Part shown: piece after piece, positions 29,829 through 38,212 of the stretch
Layout of the letters: each line of letters opens with the position of its first letter
Numbering within the stretch: position 1 is the first letter of the stretch
DNA from: Acidimicrobiaceae bacterium
Lineage (GTDB): Bacteria; Actinomycetota; Acidimicrobiia; Acidimicrobiales; RAAP-2
Reading direction: 5' to 3'
Length of the DNA stretch: 64,000 nt
Assembly (NCBI GenBank): GCA_003158855.1
Contig: PMLJ01000048.1
Span: 66,594-130,593, forward strand
Position numbers and translations under genes: made by a program
Notes under the pieces: generated by a model
What the model was told of the DNA's origin: nothing
Database searches by the model: none
Seen by the model: only the letters and a program-made list of their open reading frames with translations

Positions 29829-31286
29829 TCATTCGGGGATAACGAACCAACCGAAGCGGGCCTTCGCCTTGTAGATAAACAAGTAGTGCAGGAGCAACTT
29901 CGTCCAGTGCCCGCTGAGCCCGATCTCTCCCGAGGTCTGGGTGAGGTCGCGACCGGAGCCCGGAAAGCGACGCCGGTCGGGGATGATCGGATACATGGTG
30001 ATTGCGGCGGCGCTCCCCTTGCGAAGTCCGGTTCCCGCCGACGCGATGCACGCGGCACCCATGGCCGCCATCGAGGCCGTGCGCAACGTCGCCTGGTCCC
30101 CGCGTCGTATCCGGTCCGCGATCGAGAGCGCTACGGTGCGTCCTATGACGCCCGAGGGCATACCCGTGCGCGGAGGCGCGGGTGAGATGACAGTGCCATT
30201 CGGGCTCTTCCTCGGTTCCGAGATGGCGTGAGGCGGCGCGAAGGCGATCCCGACGCCGAAGATATTCGCGTAGCGCGGACACTGGTAAGTCTTCGGCCAG
30301 TCCTCGGGGGCCCACTGCTCAAAGGGCTTAGTCTCGTAGTCCGCGTCGACCCTGAGGAACCCGTTGGGAGCGAAGAGGTCCTCGGTGATGTCTTCGCCGT
30401 TGCTCGCATAGGCCTTCATGTCGACACCGCGAAACGGCGGCAGGAGCATGGCAAAGTCGAAGTCGAGCGTGTGGCGCGAGCCGTCGAGCTCCTCGTAATG
30501 GATCACGCCCGGATCGACCTTCTCCACGTGGGCGCGCAGTATCGCGCGCACCCCGCGCTCGCGAAACAGTGATTCGGTCCAGAGTTTGCTGCTCGTCTCA
30601 AAGCCGTTCTGGGCGAAGATCATCCCGCCGACGCCCAGGTCCCCGAGGTCGTACTCGTTGGACAGATAGACCACGTCGGCGCGTTCGCGCACGCCGCGCT
30701 CCCTGAGTTCGTGCTCAACGTTGAAGGTGTACTCGAAGGCCGCCCCCTCGCACGTGCAGGTCCCGTGACCCACGCCGATGACGAGCGTCTTTCGCTCGCC
30801 GGCCTTCAGTGCCTCGATGATCGTCTCAAGCGCGGCGGCCGACTGCTCGGCGTGTCCCGCGGTGCAGACCGACCAGGAGTTGGCGTCGGGCCCAAGCCCA
30901 GGGGTGGCCGCAAAGTTCAGTTTTGGTCCGGTCGCGACGATGAGGTAGTCGTAAGTGAGCTGCTCCTCTTCACCTACCCTGGTCGGATCGGTGTAGACGA
31001 TGTCGACGAAGCCTTGGGGATTGTCAGGGCTGCCCTCGGGGTGGATCGCCACGGCCTTGGCCTGGCGAAACCCGATGTGCTTGCGCTTGTAGATCGGCGC
31101 CAGAGGAAAGGTCACCTGGTCCTTGGTCATCTTGCCGACCCCGACCCAGATATTCGAAGGTATCCAGTTCCAATTGGAGTTGGGCGACACGACGATGATC
31201 TCGGCCTTACTCTTCAGTTGACGCTGCAGGTGTAGTGCCGCGGTGTGACCCGAAATACCGGCACCGAGGATTACGACGCGAGCCAT
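29829..31286 (-). CDS. sqr: Sulfide:quinone oxidoreductase family flavoprotein
   Basis: Membrane-associated flavoprotein predicted to oxidise sulfide and pass electrons to quinone, forming polysulfide or persulfide. The 485-residue product begins RVVILGAGISGHTAALHL (FAD motif), carries VVATGPK-type central residues (LIVATGPKLNF), the cysteine-bearing GVGHGTCTCEGAAFEY, a later cysteine in YQCPRYANIFGVG, and a C-terminal amphipathic stretch with LLLHYLFIYKAK. The subtype (III-like) is a guess. ATG 31286 has GGGGAGG upstream; the frame continuing to 31610 would cross the promoter. It is divergent from the second csoR. Confidence 0.85.
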   Translation of the reverse strand: MARVVILGAGISGHTAALHLQRQLKSKAEIIVVSPNSNWNWIPSNIWVGVGKMTKDQVTFPLAPIYKRKHIGFRQAKAVAIHPEGSPDNPQGFVDIVYTDPTRVGEEEQLTYDYLIVATGPKLNFAATPGLGPDANSWSVCTAGHAEQSAAALETIIEALKAGERKTLVIGVGHGTCTCEGAAFEYTFNVEHELRERGVRERADVVYLSNEYDLGDLGVGGMIFAQNGFETSSKLWTESLFRERGVRAILRAHVEKVDPGVIHYEELDGSRHTLDFDFAMLLPPFRGVDMKAYASNGEDITEDLFAPNGFLRVDADYETKPFEQWAPEDWPKTYQCPRYANIFGVGIAFAPPHAISEPRKSPNGTVISPAPPRTGMPSGVIGRTVALSIADRIRRGDQATLRTASMAAMGAACIASAGTGLRKGSAAAITMYPIIPDRRRFPGSGRDLTQTSGEIGLSGHWTKLLLHYLFIYKAKARFGWFVIPE

Positions 31287-31433
31287 GGCAACCTCCCCGC
31301 CTTCATTGCGGCCTGGCGCCCCGCGAGAACCCCTGTGACACGGTGCCGAGACTCTGATCTGACCAAGTTCATTGACTCCCCATTTCCGATGCAACCGCCG
31401 GACCGACGTGTAACCACCCCTGTAACCACCTGT

Positions 31434-31529: not shown

Positions 31530-31817
31530 ATGGCCACCAAGAAGACCCCGCATGTCCTCCAGGACCAGTCGCAACTTGAGAAGATCACCAAGCGCGTCAA
31601 GCGCGCGCACGGTCAGATGGGGGCCATCGTGCGAATGCTCGAAGAAGGTCGCAGCTGCGAGGACATCGTCACCCAGATGGCGGCGGTCGCCAAAGCCGTG
31701 AACACCGCCGCGTTCACGCTCATTTCAGCGAACTTGAAGGAATGTCTCGTCGATCCCGAGAACGACACCGATGAGATCGTGACCCGATTGCAGAAACTGT
31801 TCCTGAGCCTCGCCTAG
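31530..31817 (+). CDS. CsoR/FrmR-family repressor, CstR-like (copy 2)
   Basis: 95-residue repressor, close paralogue of the protein at 23753-24037 (shared KRAHGQ, EGxSCE-IVTQMAAV-KAVNTAAF-LIS). Cysteines are C43 and C72; the position of the copper-ligand histidine is N68. A persulfide or related thiol signal is therefore more likely than Cu(I). ATG 31530 is preceded by AAGGAG. It is divergent from sqr across operator site 4. Which paralogue acts at which site cannot be read from sequence. Confidence 0.9.
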   Translation: MATKKTPHVLQDQSQLEKITKRVKRAHGQMGAIVRMLEEGRSCEDIVTQMAAVAKAVNTAAFTLISANLKECLVDPENDTDEIVTRLQKLFLSLA

Positions 31818-32025: not shown

Positions 32026-32811
32026 CTAGGAAACCGTCATCCCACCGTCGACCGCGATGTCGGCGCCGGTGATGGCCGATGCGGCGGGCGAGCAGAGCCA
32101 CGCGATCGACGCCGCGACTTCGTAGGGTTCGATGAGGCGGCCGATGGGCTGGCTCTTCGCGAACTCCTCTTCGCTCGAGAGCCCGTACACGTCCGCCGAC
32201 GCCTTCAGGATCGCGGTGCGCGTCGAGCCCGGGCTCACCGCGTTCGCGGTGACGCCGTGCTCCGCGAGGTCCATCGCCACCCCGCGGATGAGGCCCACGA
32301 CCGCGTGCTTGGCGGCCGAATACGCCGCCAGATGGTAGAGGCCGGTGCTGCCCGCCGCCGAGGCGACCGCGACGATGCGACTCTGGGCGTCGCGACCGTT
32401 CGCGATCAGCGTGGGCGCGGCGGCGTCAATGAGGCGCCTGGTGCCGAGCACGTTCACCGACCACACGGCGTCCCACGCGGCGTCGGAGATCTCCCACAAC
32501 GGCGCGCCCGCGCCAATGACCCCCGCGCAGGCAACGACCGTGTCGAGGCGACCGAAGTGGCGAGACGCCGTTTCCACGGCGAGCTGCATGTCGGTGGCGC
32601 TTCGGACATCGCCGACGAGGCCGAGCACCGCGTCGCCGTGTCGCGCCACCACGCCGTCCAGATCCGCGGGCGTCGCGAGCGCGTACGGGACGTCGAGGAT
32701 GTCGCGACAACGGTCGACCGCGACGACGTGGTAGCCGTCGTTCACGAGCGCGTCCACGGTCGCCGCGCCGATTCCCCGGGCGGCCCCCGTGACGATGGCC
32801 ACGCGGTTCAC
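32026..32811 (-). CDS. Mycofactocin-coupled SDR oxidoreductase
   Basis: Short-chain dehydrogenase, 261 residues: TGAARGIG cofactor motif, CAGVIG, catalytic Ser in VASAAGS and YSAAK. A segment after strand 2 (about DRCRDILDVPYALATP) lengthens the loop near the nicotinamide. This is the mark of mycofactocin-coupled SDRs, whose NAD(H) stays bound and is recycled by the peptide cofactor. It overlaps mftD by 4 bp (ATGA), which firmly ties it to the cofactor operon. Substrate is unknown, probably an alcohol. Confidence 0.92.
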   Translation of the reverse strand: MNRVAIVTGAARGIGAATVDALVNDGYHVVAVDRCRDILDVPYALATPADLDGVVARHGDAVLGLVGDVRSATDMQLAVETASRHFGRLDTVVACAGVIGAGAPLWEISDAAWDAVWSVNVLGTRRLIDAAAPTLIANGRDAQSRIVAVASAAGSTGLYHLAAYSAAKHAVVGLIRGVAMDLAEHGVTANAVSPGSTRTAILKASADVYGLSSEEEFAKSQPIGRLIEPYEVAASIAWLCSPAASAITGADIAVDGGMTVS

Positions 32812-33980
32812 GGGCCCAGCTTTCGAAAGAAGTCCGCCGGCGCGACGACGTCGTCGCGGCTCAACTCGCTGATGCTCGATCTTCCGAGTCCGAGCAGCGT
32901 CGAATCAATGCCGCCGCGCAGCACGTCGAGCACGTTCTCGACGCCCGCCTGGCCGTTCGCGGCGAGCCCCCACAGGTACGCGCGCCCGATCATGACCGCG
33001 CGCGCACCCAGGGCGAGCGCCTTCACGACGTCGCTGCCGCGTCGAACGCCGCCGTCGAGGACCACCTCGATCTGGTCGCCCACCGCGTCGACAATGGCCG
33101 GCAGCGACCGAATCGGCGCGGGCGTCCCGTCCAGGTTGTTGCCGCCGTGGTTCGAGACCGACAGCGTCGTCGCGCCCAGGTCGACGACGCGCTTCGCGTC
33201 GTCGATGCGGCTCACGCCCTTCACCATGAACGGTCCGTCCCACTGGGCGCGCAGCCACGCCACGTCCGGCCAGCTCGGCAGCACGCTCTGCATCCACTCG
33301 TAGTAGGCGCCGAAGAAGGTGGGTGGCTTCGTGCCGACGGGCGCCATGTTGGGCGTCGTCAGGTCGGGCAGGTGACCGGTCTTCGCGAACGACCACAGCC
33401 AACGCGGCCTCGCGATGGCCTCGGGCGCCAACTTCACCGCGTTCGTGAAGTTGATCTTCTCGGGGATCCAGGGGCTGCCCCAGTCACGGCCGTTCGAGAA
33501 CGACCAGTCGAGGGTCAGGATGACCCCCTTGGCCCCGGCGGCCTTGGCCCTCTCGAGGCGCTGGACCATCGTGTCGCGGTCGCCCGACCAGTACATCTGG
33601 AAGAACACCTGGTTGTTCACGGCGCAGACGTCCTCAATGGAGCGACTGGCGAACGAGCTGAGGCCCATCGCCACGCCGCGGTTCGCCGCCGCGCGCCCGA
33701 CGGCGACCTCGCCCTCGGGGTACACGGCTTGGACGCCGGTCGGAGAGATGATGACCGGCATCGAAACCGACTGGCCCATGACGGTGGTGGCCATCAGGCG
33801 CTCGCTCGAAAGCCCGGCGATGTGGGGGGCGAAACCCAACTGATCGAACGACTCGAGGTTGTCCTTCGAGGAGAGCCCCTTTTCGGAGCCGGCGATCAGG
33901 GCGCCGTAGACCGACTTCGGCAGGCGCTTCTCGGCGCGACGCTGAGCAACGGCCACTGTCTCAAACCATTTACTCGCCAC
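32808..33980 (-). CDS. mftD: Mycofactocin maturation dehydrogenase MftD
   Basis: FMN-dependent alpha-hydroxy-acid-dehydrogenase-like enzyme of 390 residues. In mycofactocin synthesis MftD oxidatively deaminates the AHDP intermediate to give the redox-active premycofactocin. Visible: TIM-barrel segments MPVIISPTGVQAVYPEGEVAVGRAA and the FMN-phosphate loop VSNHGGNNLDG...IEVVLDGGVRRGSDVVKALALGARAVMIGR. The start is GTG 33980, preceded by GGGGGG. It is 55 bp after mftC. Confidence 0.93.
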   Translation of the reverse strand: MASKWFETVAVAQRRAEKRLPKSVYGALIAGSEKGLSSKDNLESFDQLGFAPHIAGLSSERLMATTVMGQSVSMPVIISPTGVQAVYPEGEVAVGRAAANRGVAMGLSSFASRSIEDVCAVNNQVFFQMYWSGDRDTMVQRLERAKAAGAKGVILTLDWSFSNGRDWGSPWIPEKINFTNAVKLAPEAIARPRWLWSFAKTGHLPDLTTPNMAPVGTKPPTFFGAYYEWMQSVLPSWPDVAWLRAQWDGPFMVKGVSRIDDAKRVVDLGATTLSVSNHGGNNLDGTPAPIRSLPAIVDAVGDQIEVVLDGGVRRGSDVVKALALGARAVMIGRAYLWGLAANGQAGVENVLDVLRGGIDSTLLGLGRSSISELSRDDVVAPADFFRKLGP

Positions 33981-34035
33981 GTGCCCCCCAGAAGACTCAT
34001 TGCGACAATACAGGAGCCTTCGAAAGACCGGTCCT

Positions 34036-35151
34036 TCAGCGCGACGTAATCGCGACCGCCACCCTCTTCGAGTGGTCGGGCGACGGGGTCGGGCGAATCG
34101 TGAGCCTCTTCTTCTCGAGCGCGACCTCGCCGTGACCGAAGACGCACTCGGGATCGGGGTCGCTCATCTCGAGTCCCGTGAAGAACTTGGCCGCCATGCA
34201 TCCCCCGCGGCACGCGTCGTAGGAACCGCACGACCCGCACGCTCCGGGGTTTCCCGGCTCGCGCAGGGACCGGAACAGCTCACTCGCGGTCCACACCTGC
34301 GCGAATCCGGCGTCGCGGACGTTGCCGGCCTTGAACTCGTCGTGAATCACGAAGGGGCAGGCGTACACCTCGCCCACCGGATCGATGAGGCACACCACTC
34401 GTCCCGCGCCGCAGAGATTGAGGCCCTCGAGCGGGTCCCCGAGGGCCGAGAGATGGAAGAAGGAGTCGCCCGTGAGCACGTTCGGTCGCGCCAGCAGCCA
34501 CTGGTAGAGGCGCCGGTTCTGCTCGCGCGTCGGGTGCAGCTCCTCCCAGACGTCGACGCCGCGCCCCGAGGGACGAAGCCGCGTGAGGCGCAGCTCGGCG
34601 CCGTAGTGCTGCGCCAACGTTTCGAACTCGTCGAGCTGCTCGATGCTCTCGCGCGTCATCACCACCGAGATCTTGAACTGGCCGAAGTCCGCGGCCTGCA
34701 GGTTGTCCATGGCCCGGCGGGCCTGGTCGTAGCTTCCCGCGCCGCGGATCCGGTCGCTCGTCTGCGCGTCGGCGCCGTCGATCGAGATCTGGATGTCGAG
34801 GTAGTCGATCGCGGCGAGACGTCGGGCCGCCTCCTCATCGATGCGCGTCCCATTCGTCGAGAACTTGACGCCGACCTTCTGTTTGACGGCGTGCTCGATG
34901 AGCTCGAAGAAGTCGCGGCGGATCATCGGCTCGCCCCCGCCGATGTTGATGTAGAAGATCTGCATCGCGGCGATCTCGTCGATGAGGTCCTTCGCCTCCT
35001 TCGTCGAGAGCTCCATCGGGTCGCGCCGGCCCGAGGACGAAAGACAGTGGGTGCAGGCGAGGTTGCACGCGTAGGTGAGCTCCCAGGTGAGGCAGATCGG
35101 CGCCGCCAACCCCCGCTCAAAGCGGTTGCGAAGCGAGAAGTCAGCGCCCAC
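34036..35151 (-). CDS. mftC: Mycofactocin radical SAM maturase MftC
   Basis: Radical SAM/SPASM enzyme of 371 residues that decarboxylates the C-terminal Tyr of MftA and links it to the penultimate Val. The cluster-binding C-x3-C-x2-C appears in TYACNLACTHC; a GGGEP motif follows (NIGGGEPMIRRD). The SPASM domain has CGAGR, VYACPF, CGSCGSYDACRGGC and a final Cys in ECVFG. I chose GTG 35151, overlapping the mftB stop by 11 bp, because GGAG stands 6 bp before it; the frame continuing to 35226 would cover more of mftB. Confidence 0.95.
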   Translation of the reverse strand: MGADFSLRNRFERGLAAPICLTWELTYACNLACTHCLSSSGRRDPMELSTKEAKDLIDEIAAMQIFYINIGGGEPMIRRDFFELIEHAVKQKVGVKFSTNGTRIDEEAARRLAAIDYLDIQISIDGADAQTSDRIRGAGSYDQARRAMDNLQAADFGQFKISVVMTRESIEQLDEFETLAQHYGAELRLTRLRPSGRGVDVWEELHPTREQNRRLYQWLLARPNVLTGDSFFHLSALGDPLEGLNLCGAGRVVCLIDPVGEVYACPFVIHDEFKAGNVRDAGFAQVWTASELFRSLREPGNPGACGSCGSYDACRGGCMAAKFFTGLEMSDPDPECVFGHGEVALEKKRLTIRPTPSPDHSKRVAVAITSR

Positions 35152-35422
35152 AGAGGATCTCCGAATTGAGCAGCGACGACAGCGCCTGGACGTAGCGCTG
35201 ATGCTGCCCGGAAGCGACAACCGCATCGATCGCCTCGTCGGCGCTCGCGAACTCCTCGAGACTGCGCACGAGCGCTACGAGCTCAGGTGACTTCAAGAAG
35301 ACGAGACGTCGGTTGCCGTGGTGATAGGCGAGCGCACCAAAGGCCTCGTCGCGCAGCGAGACCTGATTACTCAACCTCCAGGGACTCGACGCGTCAAAGA
35401 CGTGCACCGCCGAAGGCATCAC
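35141..35422 (-). CDS. mftB: Mycofactocin precursor-binding chaperone MftB
   Basis: PqqD-like RiPP recognition element, 92-93 residues, that binds MftA and presents it to MftC. Sequence: SNQVSLRDEAFGALAYHHGNRRLVFLKSPELVALV followed in separate helices by SADEAIDAVV. The start is GTG 35422 or ATG 35419, only 3-6 bp after mftA, so coupled translation is likely. Confidence 0.92.
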   Translation of the reverse strand: MMPSAVHVFDASSPWRLSNQVSLRDEAFGALAYHHGNRRLVFLKSPELVALVRSLEEFASADEAIDAVVASGQHQRYVQALSSLLNSEILCGR

Positions 35423-35425
35423 GAT

Positions 35426-35533
35426 CTAGTAGACGCCGCAGAGTCCGTCAATGGAGACTTCCTCGACGAGCAACTCCTCACTCTCCCCGATCTCGACTAC
35501 CTCTTCATCAGCAATGAGTGTTTCTGTTGGCAC
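35426..35533 (-). CDS. mftA: Mycofactocin precursor peptide MftA (35 aa)
   Basis: Precursor of the redox cofactor mycofactocin. GTG 35533 gives an acidic leader (VPTETLIADEEVVEIGESEE) and the diagnostic end VEEVSIDGLCGVY before TAG 35426-35428. The C-terminal Val-Tyr is what MftC modifies. The classical core is IDGMCGVY; here Leu replaces Met. An AGGAGGGTAC site precedes the GTG. An in-frame ATG at 35620 would extend into the divergent mftF and is rejected. Confidence 0.96.
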   Translation of the reverse strand: MPTETLIADEEVVEIGESEELLVEEVSIDGLCGVY

Positions 35534-35606
35534 GTACCCTCCTGGTCTCCTCCTATTCTGCCGTGTCCGAACACCCCGCGCGACCACGCCATGGCAAACT
35601 GCCTGC

Positions 35607-37049
35607 GTGGCCGACCTCATCCCCTCCGCTCGCGCGCCCGTCGCCGCGCCGGTGCCCGCCGGGACGCTGGTAATCCTTGATGAGCAGGCGCAGTTCCTTG
35701 ATCGCGACTACGTCGCGGGCGGATCGCCGTGGCGCCTCCTTCGCCTTCCCGGTGGATCGAGATCGGTGGCGGATCGTTGGAGGGGCGGCGCCGCGGTGCG
35801 CGCCGGCGAGGAGCGGTTTGCGAGGACGCTCGTGCAACAGGGGCTGCTTCACCCCCTCTACCGTGGAGCGCTCAATGTCGAGAGCATCGACGTGGTCATT
35901 CCGGTTCGCGACGACGTCGCCTCGCTGCGGCCACTGCTGAGCCAGCTTCGGGGCCTGCACGTCACCGTGGTCGATGATGCCTCGCTCAATCCGATCCTCG
36001 TCGCGCAATGCGCCCGTCAGTTCGAGGTCGCGCTCATCCGCCTGGAAGCGAACAGGGGGCCGGGCGGAGCCCGCAACGCCGGCGCCGATGCCACGACCAG
36101 GCCGCTGCTCTGCTTCCTCGATGCCGACGTTTCCCTCGATGACGCCGCTGACGTCCTCGGGCGACTCAGTGCCCAGTTCCAGGATCCACTCCTCGCGGCC
36201 TGCGCTCCACGGATTCGCGGCGGGACGGGCGCCTCGGCGCGCGCGAGGTTCGAGCGAAAGTTCAGCCCTCTCGACATGGGGGCGAGGAATGCCCTCGTCG
36301 TTCCCGGTGGGCCGGTCAGCTACGTCCCGAGTGCCTGCCTCGTGGTCCGCAGGAGCGCATTCGGATCAGGATTCGACGAGCAGTTGCGAACCGGAGAGGA
36401 TGTCGATCTGGTCTGGCGCCTGCACGACCGGGGCTGGCTCGTTCGCTACGTCGCGAGCGTGGTCGTGACCCATGAGGCCAGGGGTACGTGGCGCCACTGG
36501 TTCTACCAGCGGATTGCGTACGGGGCGTCGTCGGGCGAGCTCGCGCAACGCCACGGGGATCGCCTGGCGCCGGTTCGCTCCGACCCCTGGACCCTCGCCG
36601 CATGGTCATCGGTCCTGCTCGGACAACCCATGCTCGGTGCGCGAGTCGTCCGCGTCACGCGCGATCACCTTCGAGCGCGCATCGCCAACGAGGGCGGCGA
36701 CGTTGGCGAGGTCGCGAACAAGGTCGTCAACAAGGCGATGGTCGGAGCCGGCGGGCCCTTGGCCCGGGCCCTGGTTCGAACGTTCGGGCTGGGGATCCTG
36801 GCCTGCGCCCTGCACCCGAGGCTGCGACGCCGGGCCCTCATCGTGTTGGGCGTCGGCACCGCGTGGCGCTGGCGCCATGAACGGTTTCACCCGGGCGACG
36901 TTCCCCTGGCGCTCGCCGATGACGCCGCCTACGGCGTCGGCGTCATCAAGGGCGCGTGGCGCACCAAGTCCCTCGCCTCGCTCACTCCGCGCATCACCAA
37001 GTCATCGGTGCGCGTGCGCGACGTGCTCGGCCTCTCGAAGGCGAAGTAG
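35607..37049 (+). CDS. mftF: Mycofactocin glycosyltransferase MftF
   Basis: GT2-family enzyme of 480 residues that adds glucose units to mycofactocin. Residues about 90-100 start the GT-A domain: VVIPVRDDVASLRPLL, LHVTVVDDAS, NRGPGGARNAGADAT and the DxD-like FLDADVS. The region RTGEDVDLVWRLHDRGW follows. The N-terminal part resembles a PqqD-like wing seen in MftF. I chose GTG 35607, at which homology begins; upstream Met codons of the frame run antisense over mftA. No clear Shine-Dalgarno is seen and CAAACT lies 6 bp before the GTG, so a leaderless mRNA is possible. It is divergent from mftA across 73 bp. Confidence 0.9.
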   Translation: MADLIPSARAPVAAPVPAGTLVILDEQAQFLDRDYVAGGSPWRLLRLPGGSRSVADRWRGGAAVRAGEERFARTLVQQGLLHPLYRGALNVESIDVVIPVRDDVASLRPLLSQLRGLHVTVVDDASLNPILVAQCARQFEVALIRLEANRGPGGARNAGADATTRPLLCFLDADVSLDDAADVLGRLSAQFQDPLLAACAPRIRGGTGASARARFERKFSPLDMGARNALVVPGGPVSYVPSACLVVRRSAFGSGFDEQLRTGEDVDLVWRLHDRGWLVRYVASVVVTHEARGTWRHWFYQRIAYGASSGELAQRHGDRLAPVRSDPWTLAAWSSVLLGQPMLGARVVRVTRDHLRARIANEGGDVGEVANKVVNKAMVGAGGPLARALVRTFGLGILACALHPRLRRRALIVLGVGTAWRWRHERFHPGDVPLALADDAAYGVGVIKGAWRTKSLASLTPRITKSSVRVRDVLGLSKAK

Positions 37050-37060
37050 ATCCCGCTCCT

Positions 37061-38212
37061 CTAGAAGCGGATGACTCCTCGGAGGTTCTCGCCCGAGGCG
37101 AGGTCGTCCGCGGCGTCCTGCACCTGGTCGATCGTGTACTCCTTGGTGACCAGTTCGTCGATGAAGAACTTTCCCTCGTGGTGCAGGCGAAGCAGGCGCG
37201 GAACTTGGATCCGGGGGTTCTCCGAACCGAAGACCGTGCCGCGAAGCTCCTGGTTGGACATCGAGAACATCATCATGTTGATCTCGACGCTCGTGAGGGT
37301 GTTCGCCGCCAGCGATGTCGCGACGATGACGCCGCCCTTCGCGGTGATCGACCTGGCCTGCTCGAGCAGTTCCGAGGTGAGGTTGTCCACGGTGATGATC
37401 ACGACGTCGCAGTTCTTTCCCCACGTGAGTTCAGGCAAGATGTTGAACGCGGCGTCGAGGGTCGTCGCGCAGCCGTGCGTGGCCCCGATCTTCAAGGCCC
37501 GGTCGATCTTCGACTGGTTGGTGTCGATCGCGATAACGGCCCGCGCGCCCGCGAGGGCCGCCCCCTGGACCGCACCCGACCCGACGCCGCCGCAGCCAAT
37601 CACGGCCACCGTGTCGCCGGGCTTCACGTCGCCGCGGTTCACGGCCGAGCCGAAGCCCGTCGAGATGCCGCACGAGATCAGCGCCGCCGCGCGAAGGTCG
37701 TACCAGGGCTCGATGCGGATGAGCGAAGCCTCGTGCACGACGATGTACTCGGAGAATGAACCGATCTGGCACATCCGGTTCAGCACCTCGTCGCCCAGGT
37801 GGTGGCGCCACGTGGCGTCAGAGATCATCGGGCCCGCGAGGATGGTCGAGCCCATGTCGCAGATGTACTGACGACCCGACAGGCAGTATTCGCACGTGCC
37901 GCACGACGGCACGAACGAGACCGCGACGTGGTCGCCGGGCTTCAGCGACGTGACGTCGGGACCGACGGATTCGACGACTCCCGAACCCTCGTGCCCACCA
38001 ATCGCCGGGAACATCGACTCTCGCCCGGAGATCATCGCCATCACTTCGGGGGCCATGCCGATGTCGCCGTGGCGCAGGTGCTCGTCCGAGAAGCACAGAC
38101 CCGAAAACGCCATCTTGACTTTGACCTCATTGGCGTGCGGCTCGTCGATTTCGATGAGCTCGGTGTGCCATGGTCCGTGTGCTTCAGTAACAATCGCGGC
38201 CTTAACCTGCAT
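37061..38212 (-). CDS. NDMA-type zinc-dependent alcohol dehydrogenase
   Basis: 383-residue medium-chain dehydrogenase: catalytic-zinc region [14 protein letters not shown] with [10 protein letters not shown], structural zinc cysteines in [16 protein letters not shown], nucleotide loop [15 protein letters not shown]. The subfamily (NDMA-dependent, nicotinoprotein alcohol dehydrogenases) keeps NAD(H) tightly bound and is reoxidised in vivo by mycofactocin. Convergent with mftF across 11 bp, which supports the cofactor link. Substrate probably a primary alcohol; unknown here. Confidence 0.92.

Follow-up and report, generated by a model that had tools for sequence, protein, structure and literature searches.

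How might the product of a mycofactocin cluster be released when mftE, the gene for its dedicated leader peptidase, is missing? The question is raised by a locus on contig PMLJ01000048.1 of an Acidimicrobiaceae bacterium, within a window (the whole stretch of DNA analysed) of 64,000 nucleotides. The locus is probably a working mycofactocin cluster from which the peptidase gene has been lost naturally, its product being released by a peptidase encoded elsewhere; we infer both production and release from the genes.

The locus and the genes missing from its genome

All seven gene products of the locus (MftA, MftB, MftC, MftD, MftF, the SDR and the alcohol dehydrogenase, ADH) score above the curated NCBIfam cut-offs in profile searches. 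The features are as follows.

35426..35533, minus strand: mftA, precursor peptide of 35 amino acids with C-terminal SIDGLCGVY (TIGR03969, 40.6 bits, cut-off 25)
35141..35422, minus strand: mftB, precursor-binding chaperone (TIGR03967, 91.3 bits, cut-off 33)
34036..35226 (open frame), minus strand: mftC, radical SAM maturase (TIGR03962, 603.2 bits, cut-off 265)
33981..34035, minus strand: mftC/mftD junction of 55 bp, where seven relatives in the genus have mftE; free of any mftE remnant
32808..33980, minus strand: mftD, pre-mycofactocin synthase, occupying the mftE slot (TIGR03966, 673.6 bits, cut-off 470.85)
32026..32811, minus strand: mycofactocin-coupled SDR, client enzyme (TIGR04504, 334.7 bits, cut-off 250)
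35607..37049, plus strand: mftF, glycosyltransferase (TIGR03965, 293.6 bits, cut-off 280)
37061..38212, minus strand: NDMA-type (nicotinoprotein) alcohol dehydrogenase, client enzyme (TIGR03989, 462.9 bits, cut-off 440)

The minus-strand order mftA, mftB, mftC, mftD, SDR, with mftF divergent from mftA across 73 bp, had been given in a preliminary description of this DNA and is borne out. As read from the sequence, mftA starts with GTG and has an AGGAGG-type ribosome site upstream; mftF also starts with GTG, at 35607, and the true start of mftC is, by inspection, probably a GTG near 35151. The SDR gene overlaps mftD by 4 bp, mftD is the sole copy in the genome above the TIGR03966 cut-off, and the alcohol dehydrogenase gene is convergent with mftF. 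The matches to TIGR04504 and TIGR03989 support the earlier assignment of two client enzymes, the SDR and the NDMA-type alcohol dehydrogenase, as predicted mycofactocin-dependent nicotinoproteins.

The same description reported mftE, mftR and mftG missing from the window and proposed a genome-wide search, as an mftE elsewhere would make the layout ordinary. The genome consists of 2,716,189 bases in 50 contigs (96.48% complete, 2.49% contaminated), and none of the three genes is found in it above the cut-offs. There are no matches to the MftE model TIGR03964 and none to the creatininase family, PF02633, at E ≤ 0.001, ruling out an mftE beyond the window; the highest score for MftG is 19.2 bits (cut-off 387.45), and the highest TetR-type score for MftR is 83 bits (cut-off 224.9). 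A remnant of mftE in the slot is likewise ruled out: tblastn with 11 MftE proteins against 66 mftE-less loci, that of the window among them, reached an E no better than 0.19, while among the matches listed MftE proteins match one another's loci at E 1e-61 or better. The lack of mftR and mftG is real and ordinary in this genus: of 120 genomes sampled from the family, 27 have MftR above the cut-off, the window's genus contributing none, and 0 have MftG. According to excerpts of the respective papers, MftR is a repressor in Mycobacterium smegmatis (PMC8728441) and roughly one in four MftC genomes lacks MftG (PMC11778925).

Exchange of mftD for mftE across the genus

In the genus, 99 genomes were searched for MftC and creatininase-family proteins, and the locus was read in all 70 genomes with MftC; 29 have no MftC match, and 18 of the 99 have a creatininase match. 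The mft gene next after mftC is mftD in 59 of the 70, mftE in seven (G009, G028, G056, G078, G088, G118 and G477) and a mycofactocin OYE gene in one, with the contig ending there in the remaining three. The pattern recognised in the first 32 loci was tested on a second batch of 38, read afterwards, which yielded 33 with mftD, one with mftE and four with neither seen. An eighth mftE genome is G072, where mftE lies behind an mftC fragment. The seven mftE-slot genomes retain mftD at another place, which in G009 and G028 lies some 3.6 kb past ArgS; for G477 this is read from a locus (L038) assigned to it by the length of its contig. Unrelated genes separate mftC from mftD in four of the 59 mftD-slot genomes (G086, G116, G440 and G446). 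The mftD gene is split over two open frames in G101, G442 and G443, as is mftC in G111, and the contig of G474 ends within mftD, leaving its start alone visible.

No PF02633 match is present in 53 of the 59 mftD-slot genomes. The remaining six contain seven creatininase-family proteins, none on a contig link with mftC, and their scores of 49.7–90.0 bits, where MftE requires 172, rule them out as a hidden MftE. Proteins of the same kind occur in G445, G457 and G460, all without an MftC match; the one scanned, from G460, reaches 78.5 bits. The in-slot MftE of G009 scores 169.9 bits, just below the cut-off, and four others scanned score 207–240. Of 33 mftD-slot genomes that are at least 90% complete, 31 are without a creatininase match, and gaps are therefore no explanation for the absence of mftE; the clade-wide pattern also rules out an assembly gap in the window's own genome. 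The locus in the window is a natural, clade-wide mycofactocin variant, unusual in that mftE is lost and mftD stands in its place. The divergent mftF, also presented earlier as notable, is present but ordinary in the genus, since every one of the 71 genomes of g1, g7, g10 and g14 that show both mftC and mftF has it, mftE-bearing genomes included.

In a six-gene IQ-TREE phylogeny rooted on g7, g10 and g14, the mftE-slot genomes are basal and the 59 tips labelled mftD form one clade (SH-aLRT 96.6, bootstrap 94); mftD was seen in the slot in 55 of these tips, while in G439, G444, G450 and G473 mftD itself was not seen despite the label. This tree left out G040 and G095, which have long branches, and G441, G486 and G072, which have too few columns; a FastTree phylogeny with G040 and G095 restored keeps the mftD-slot clade (0.998). 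Because the six-gene tree groups the mftD-slot genomes as one clade, it suggests that mftE may have been exchanged for mftD in the slot a single time; the smaller gene sets leave the number of losses unsettled. With FastTree, neither ArgS plus ADH nor the mft genes alone recover a single mftD-slot clade, which ArgS plus ADH nonetheless does not reject (p-AU 0.451), and with IQ-TREE the mft genes do recover it, with support 77. A tree of MftC only, including g14 and outgroups, requires four label changes, at least two of them forced by well-supported branches. The MftD tree, much of which is unresolved, gives no sign of a foreign mftD acquired by transfer.

Genus g14 is represented by G014 and G030 (96 and 97% complete), which have MftC, with mftC followed directly by the SDR gene and mftD far off; a creatininase match is found in neither. 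As g14 groups with an mftE-bearing g7 genome in the tree, this is a separate loss of mftE. In a phylum sample of 326 genomes at least 90% complete, MftC is above the cut-off in 57; outside the home family, 44 of 47 MftC genomes also have a creatininase-family match. The three that do not are G338, G420 and G434, the MftC of the last two scoring just 325–340 bits. In G338, a 4.8-Mb genome of another family without a creatininase match, mftA and mftC are followed by mftF at locus L207, and mftD and mftE were not found within 18 kb of that locus. Many genomes of g3, g5, g15, g20 and g21 present the opposite lack to that of the window: they have MftC, a creatininase match and MftR, and no MftD above the cut-off (one g15 genome, G042, does have MftD).

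Several genes around these clusters were recorded as separate observations. Beside the cluster of the window are a gene for a pyridine-nucleotide/FAD oxidoreductase distantly like sulfide:quinone reductase (29829-31310, minus strand) and a metal-sensitive-repressor gene of the CsoR family (31530-31817, plus strand). The oxidoreductase family is found at 18 of 62 mftD-slot loci and in none of ten mftE-slot stretches, which come from seven genomes and have short flanks; one guess is that a quinone-linked flavoprotein reoxidises the cofactor, MftG being missing. A saccharopine-dehydrogenase-like gene follows the SDR gene in 24 of 62 mftD-slot loci (for example L111:4913-6472 and L116:12147-13607), the window not being among them, and PALP-type and aldehyde dehydrogenase genes recur near mftD-slot loci. 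Between mftD and mftC of G086 (L119:4934-6238) lie genes for an S11 D-Ala-D-Ala carboxypeptidase, a YkuD-domain protein and a LysR regulator. In G444 (L178:1-3022), which is nested in the mftD-slot clade, a mycofactocin OYE_1 gene (839.9 bits) stands directly after mftC, and no mftD, mftE or SDR gene was seen within 3 kb.

Probable release of the product without MftE

A cluster without its peptidase gene might be decaying, or might make a different product, with no mycofactocin formed; the missing regulator and MftG, and the 29 genus genomes without an MftC match, would fit such a course. The genes that remain argue against it. Six pairs of mftE-less genomes give dN/dS values of 0.050–0.127 for MftC, 0.064–0.135 for MftD, 0.129–0.307 for MftB and 0.109–0.240 for MftF, and likewise low values for the SDR and the ADH; the comparison gene, ArgS, gives 0.088–0.219 in the five pairs having it. 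MftC and MftD are under purifying selection in the mftE-less genomes. The C-terminus of MftA reads IDG[LMI]CGVY in all 36 loci listed, with or without mftE, under a search pattern that itself demanded C-x-V-Y, and the client enzymes are kept. Decay or a changed product is thus an improbable reading.

Residues that go with the loss of mftE were sought in alignments of 54–58 mftE-less and 8–17 mftE-bearing rows, a column being counted as separating if a residue was at least 90% fixed on one side and present in at most 15% on the other. No such column exists in MftB, MftC or MftD, while MftF has one and the SDR and the ADH three each; five MftD columns from a smaller, earlier alignment were only half-separated. 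The absence of a residue signature speaks against neofunctionalisation of MftD. Taken together, the low dN/dS values, the conserved MftA end and the lack of a signature in MftB, MftC and MftD indicate a pathway that is kept but not visibly adapted.

These alignments also bear on the idea that MftD, or another protein of the cluster, releases the product itself, to which we give very little credence. In the proposed chemistry, MftD would act on the cyclised valine before its separation from the glycine of the leader and oxidise its alpha carbon. Hydrolysis of the acylimine thus formed would give pre-mycofactocin and a leader amide in one step, with no peptidase needed to break the peptide bond. 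The position of the gene is suggestive: wherever mftD is visible in an mftE-less cluster of the genus it occupies the mftE slot (59 of 59), and it does so in none of the seven mftE-slot genomes. However, MftD, MftC and MftB show no near-fixed substitution that accompanies the loss, g14 is without mftE yet has mftD far from mftC, and M. smegmatis makes AHDP without MftE and needs MftD afterwards (PMC7491314). Such a one-step release by MftD is highly improbable.

The M. smegmatis data, from excerpts of two papers, point elsewhere. Deletion of mftE reduces mycofactocin production but does not abolish it (PMC7491314); the mutant grows slowly on ethanol (PMC7491314, PMC6529628) and piles up glycyl-AHDP species (PMC7491314); the authors infer an unknown peptidase and consider that an aminopeptidase would be enough (PMC7491314). 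The earlier statement that MftE is needed to cut the modified peptide was thus too strong, and a genome without mftE should not be taken to lack the cofactor. That statement had left two ways out, an mftE elsewhere or another peptidase; the first is excluded for the genome and the clade, and the second is the better explanation. MftD works on AHDP after its release, according to the same excerpts of PMC7491314, and MftD is conserved in the clade, so release would take place, by an enzyme outside the cluster.

In the sequence of events that we favour, MftA would be bound by MftB, and its C-terminal Val-Tyr would be decarboxylated and cyclised by MftC. The leader would then be trimmed to AHDP by an unlinked peptidase, probably one or more general aminopeptidases, after which MftD would oxidise AHDP to pre-mycofactocin, MftF would add sugars, and the SDR and the NDMA-type alcohol dehydrogenase would use the cofactor. 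One candidate is the M17 leucyl aminopeptidase, found in each of the 38 genomes tested for it. As these include genomes with mftE, without mftE and without MftC, it was rejected as a discriminating candidate.

The bypass in M. smegmatis is poor, with its accumulation of glycyl-AHDP (PMC7491314), and a clade relying on the bypass alone would therefore need a better enzyme. The ancestor of the mftD-slot clade could have recruited, a single time, a specific, non-homologous peptidase encoded away from the cluster. A loss fixed over a clade as wide as 59 tips is easier to understand with an efficient substitute than with a leaky one, but the neighbourhood and g14 make this recruitment rather unlikely. 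When ten protein seeds from conserved neighbours were scanned against Pfam, no peptidase was found: six belong to the saccharopine dehydrogenase, PALP, aldehyde dehydrogenase, periplasmic binding protein, FAD oxidoreductase and methyltransferase families, and four have no Pfam family. The S11 carboxypeptidase between mftC and mftD is confined to G086, and g14 also lacks mftE (2/2), so that a tailored enzyme would be needed twice. As to a replacement peptidase beside the cluster, none is common to the clade, although the SDR-side flanks are short in most mftE-slot loci, making absence there weak evidence. Release by general peptidases encoded elsewhere is the reading we retain. The search for the enzyme that stands in for MftE in M. 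smegmatis (PMC7491314) can draw on the MftE-free clade and its mftE-bearing sisters, whose gene sets can be compared and whose proteins lend themselves to a simple biochemical test.

Comparison with known systems

Among the open-licence papers searched, none on mftE-less mycofactocin clusters in this group was found. The locus shares with the mycobacterial mftABCDEF clusters of M. smegmatis and M. tuberculosis the genes mftA, mftB, mftC, mftD and mftF, the same VY core, an NDMA-type alcohol dehydrogenase and a mycofactocin-coupled SDR; it differs from them in being without mftE, mftR and mftG, in its divergent mftF and in having mftD in the mftE slot. The closest comparison is with the seven sister genomes with the order mftA-B-C-E-SDR, which are of the same genus and have the same ArgS, ADH, divergent mftF and SDR; in these, mftE is in the slot and mftD elsewhere.

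Mycofactocin biosynthesis without MftE, here deduced from the gene content, has its experimental counterpart in the M. smegmatis mutant (PMC7491314, as excerpted). There the deletion was made in the laboratory and led to reduced yield and glycyl-AHDP, whereas in the clade of the window the loss is natural and clade-wide. Genomes lacking mftE had already been recorded: in Haft 2011 (PMC3023750), the creatininase-family gene is said to occur in most, not all, species with the cluster. To this the present analysis adds the exchange of mftD for mftE within one genus of the Acidimicrobiales, together with the analysis of selection.
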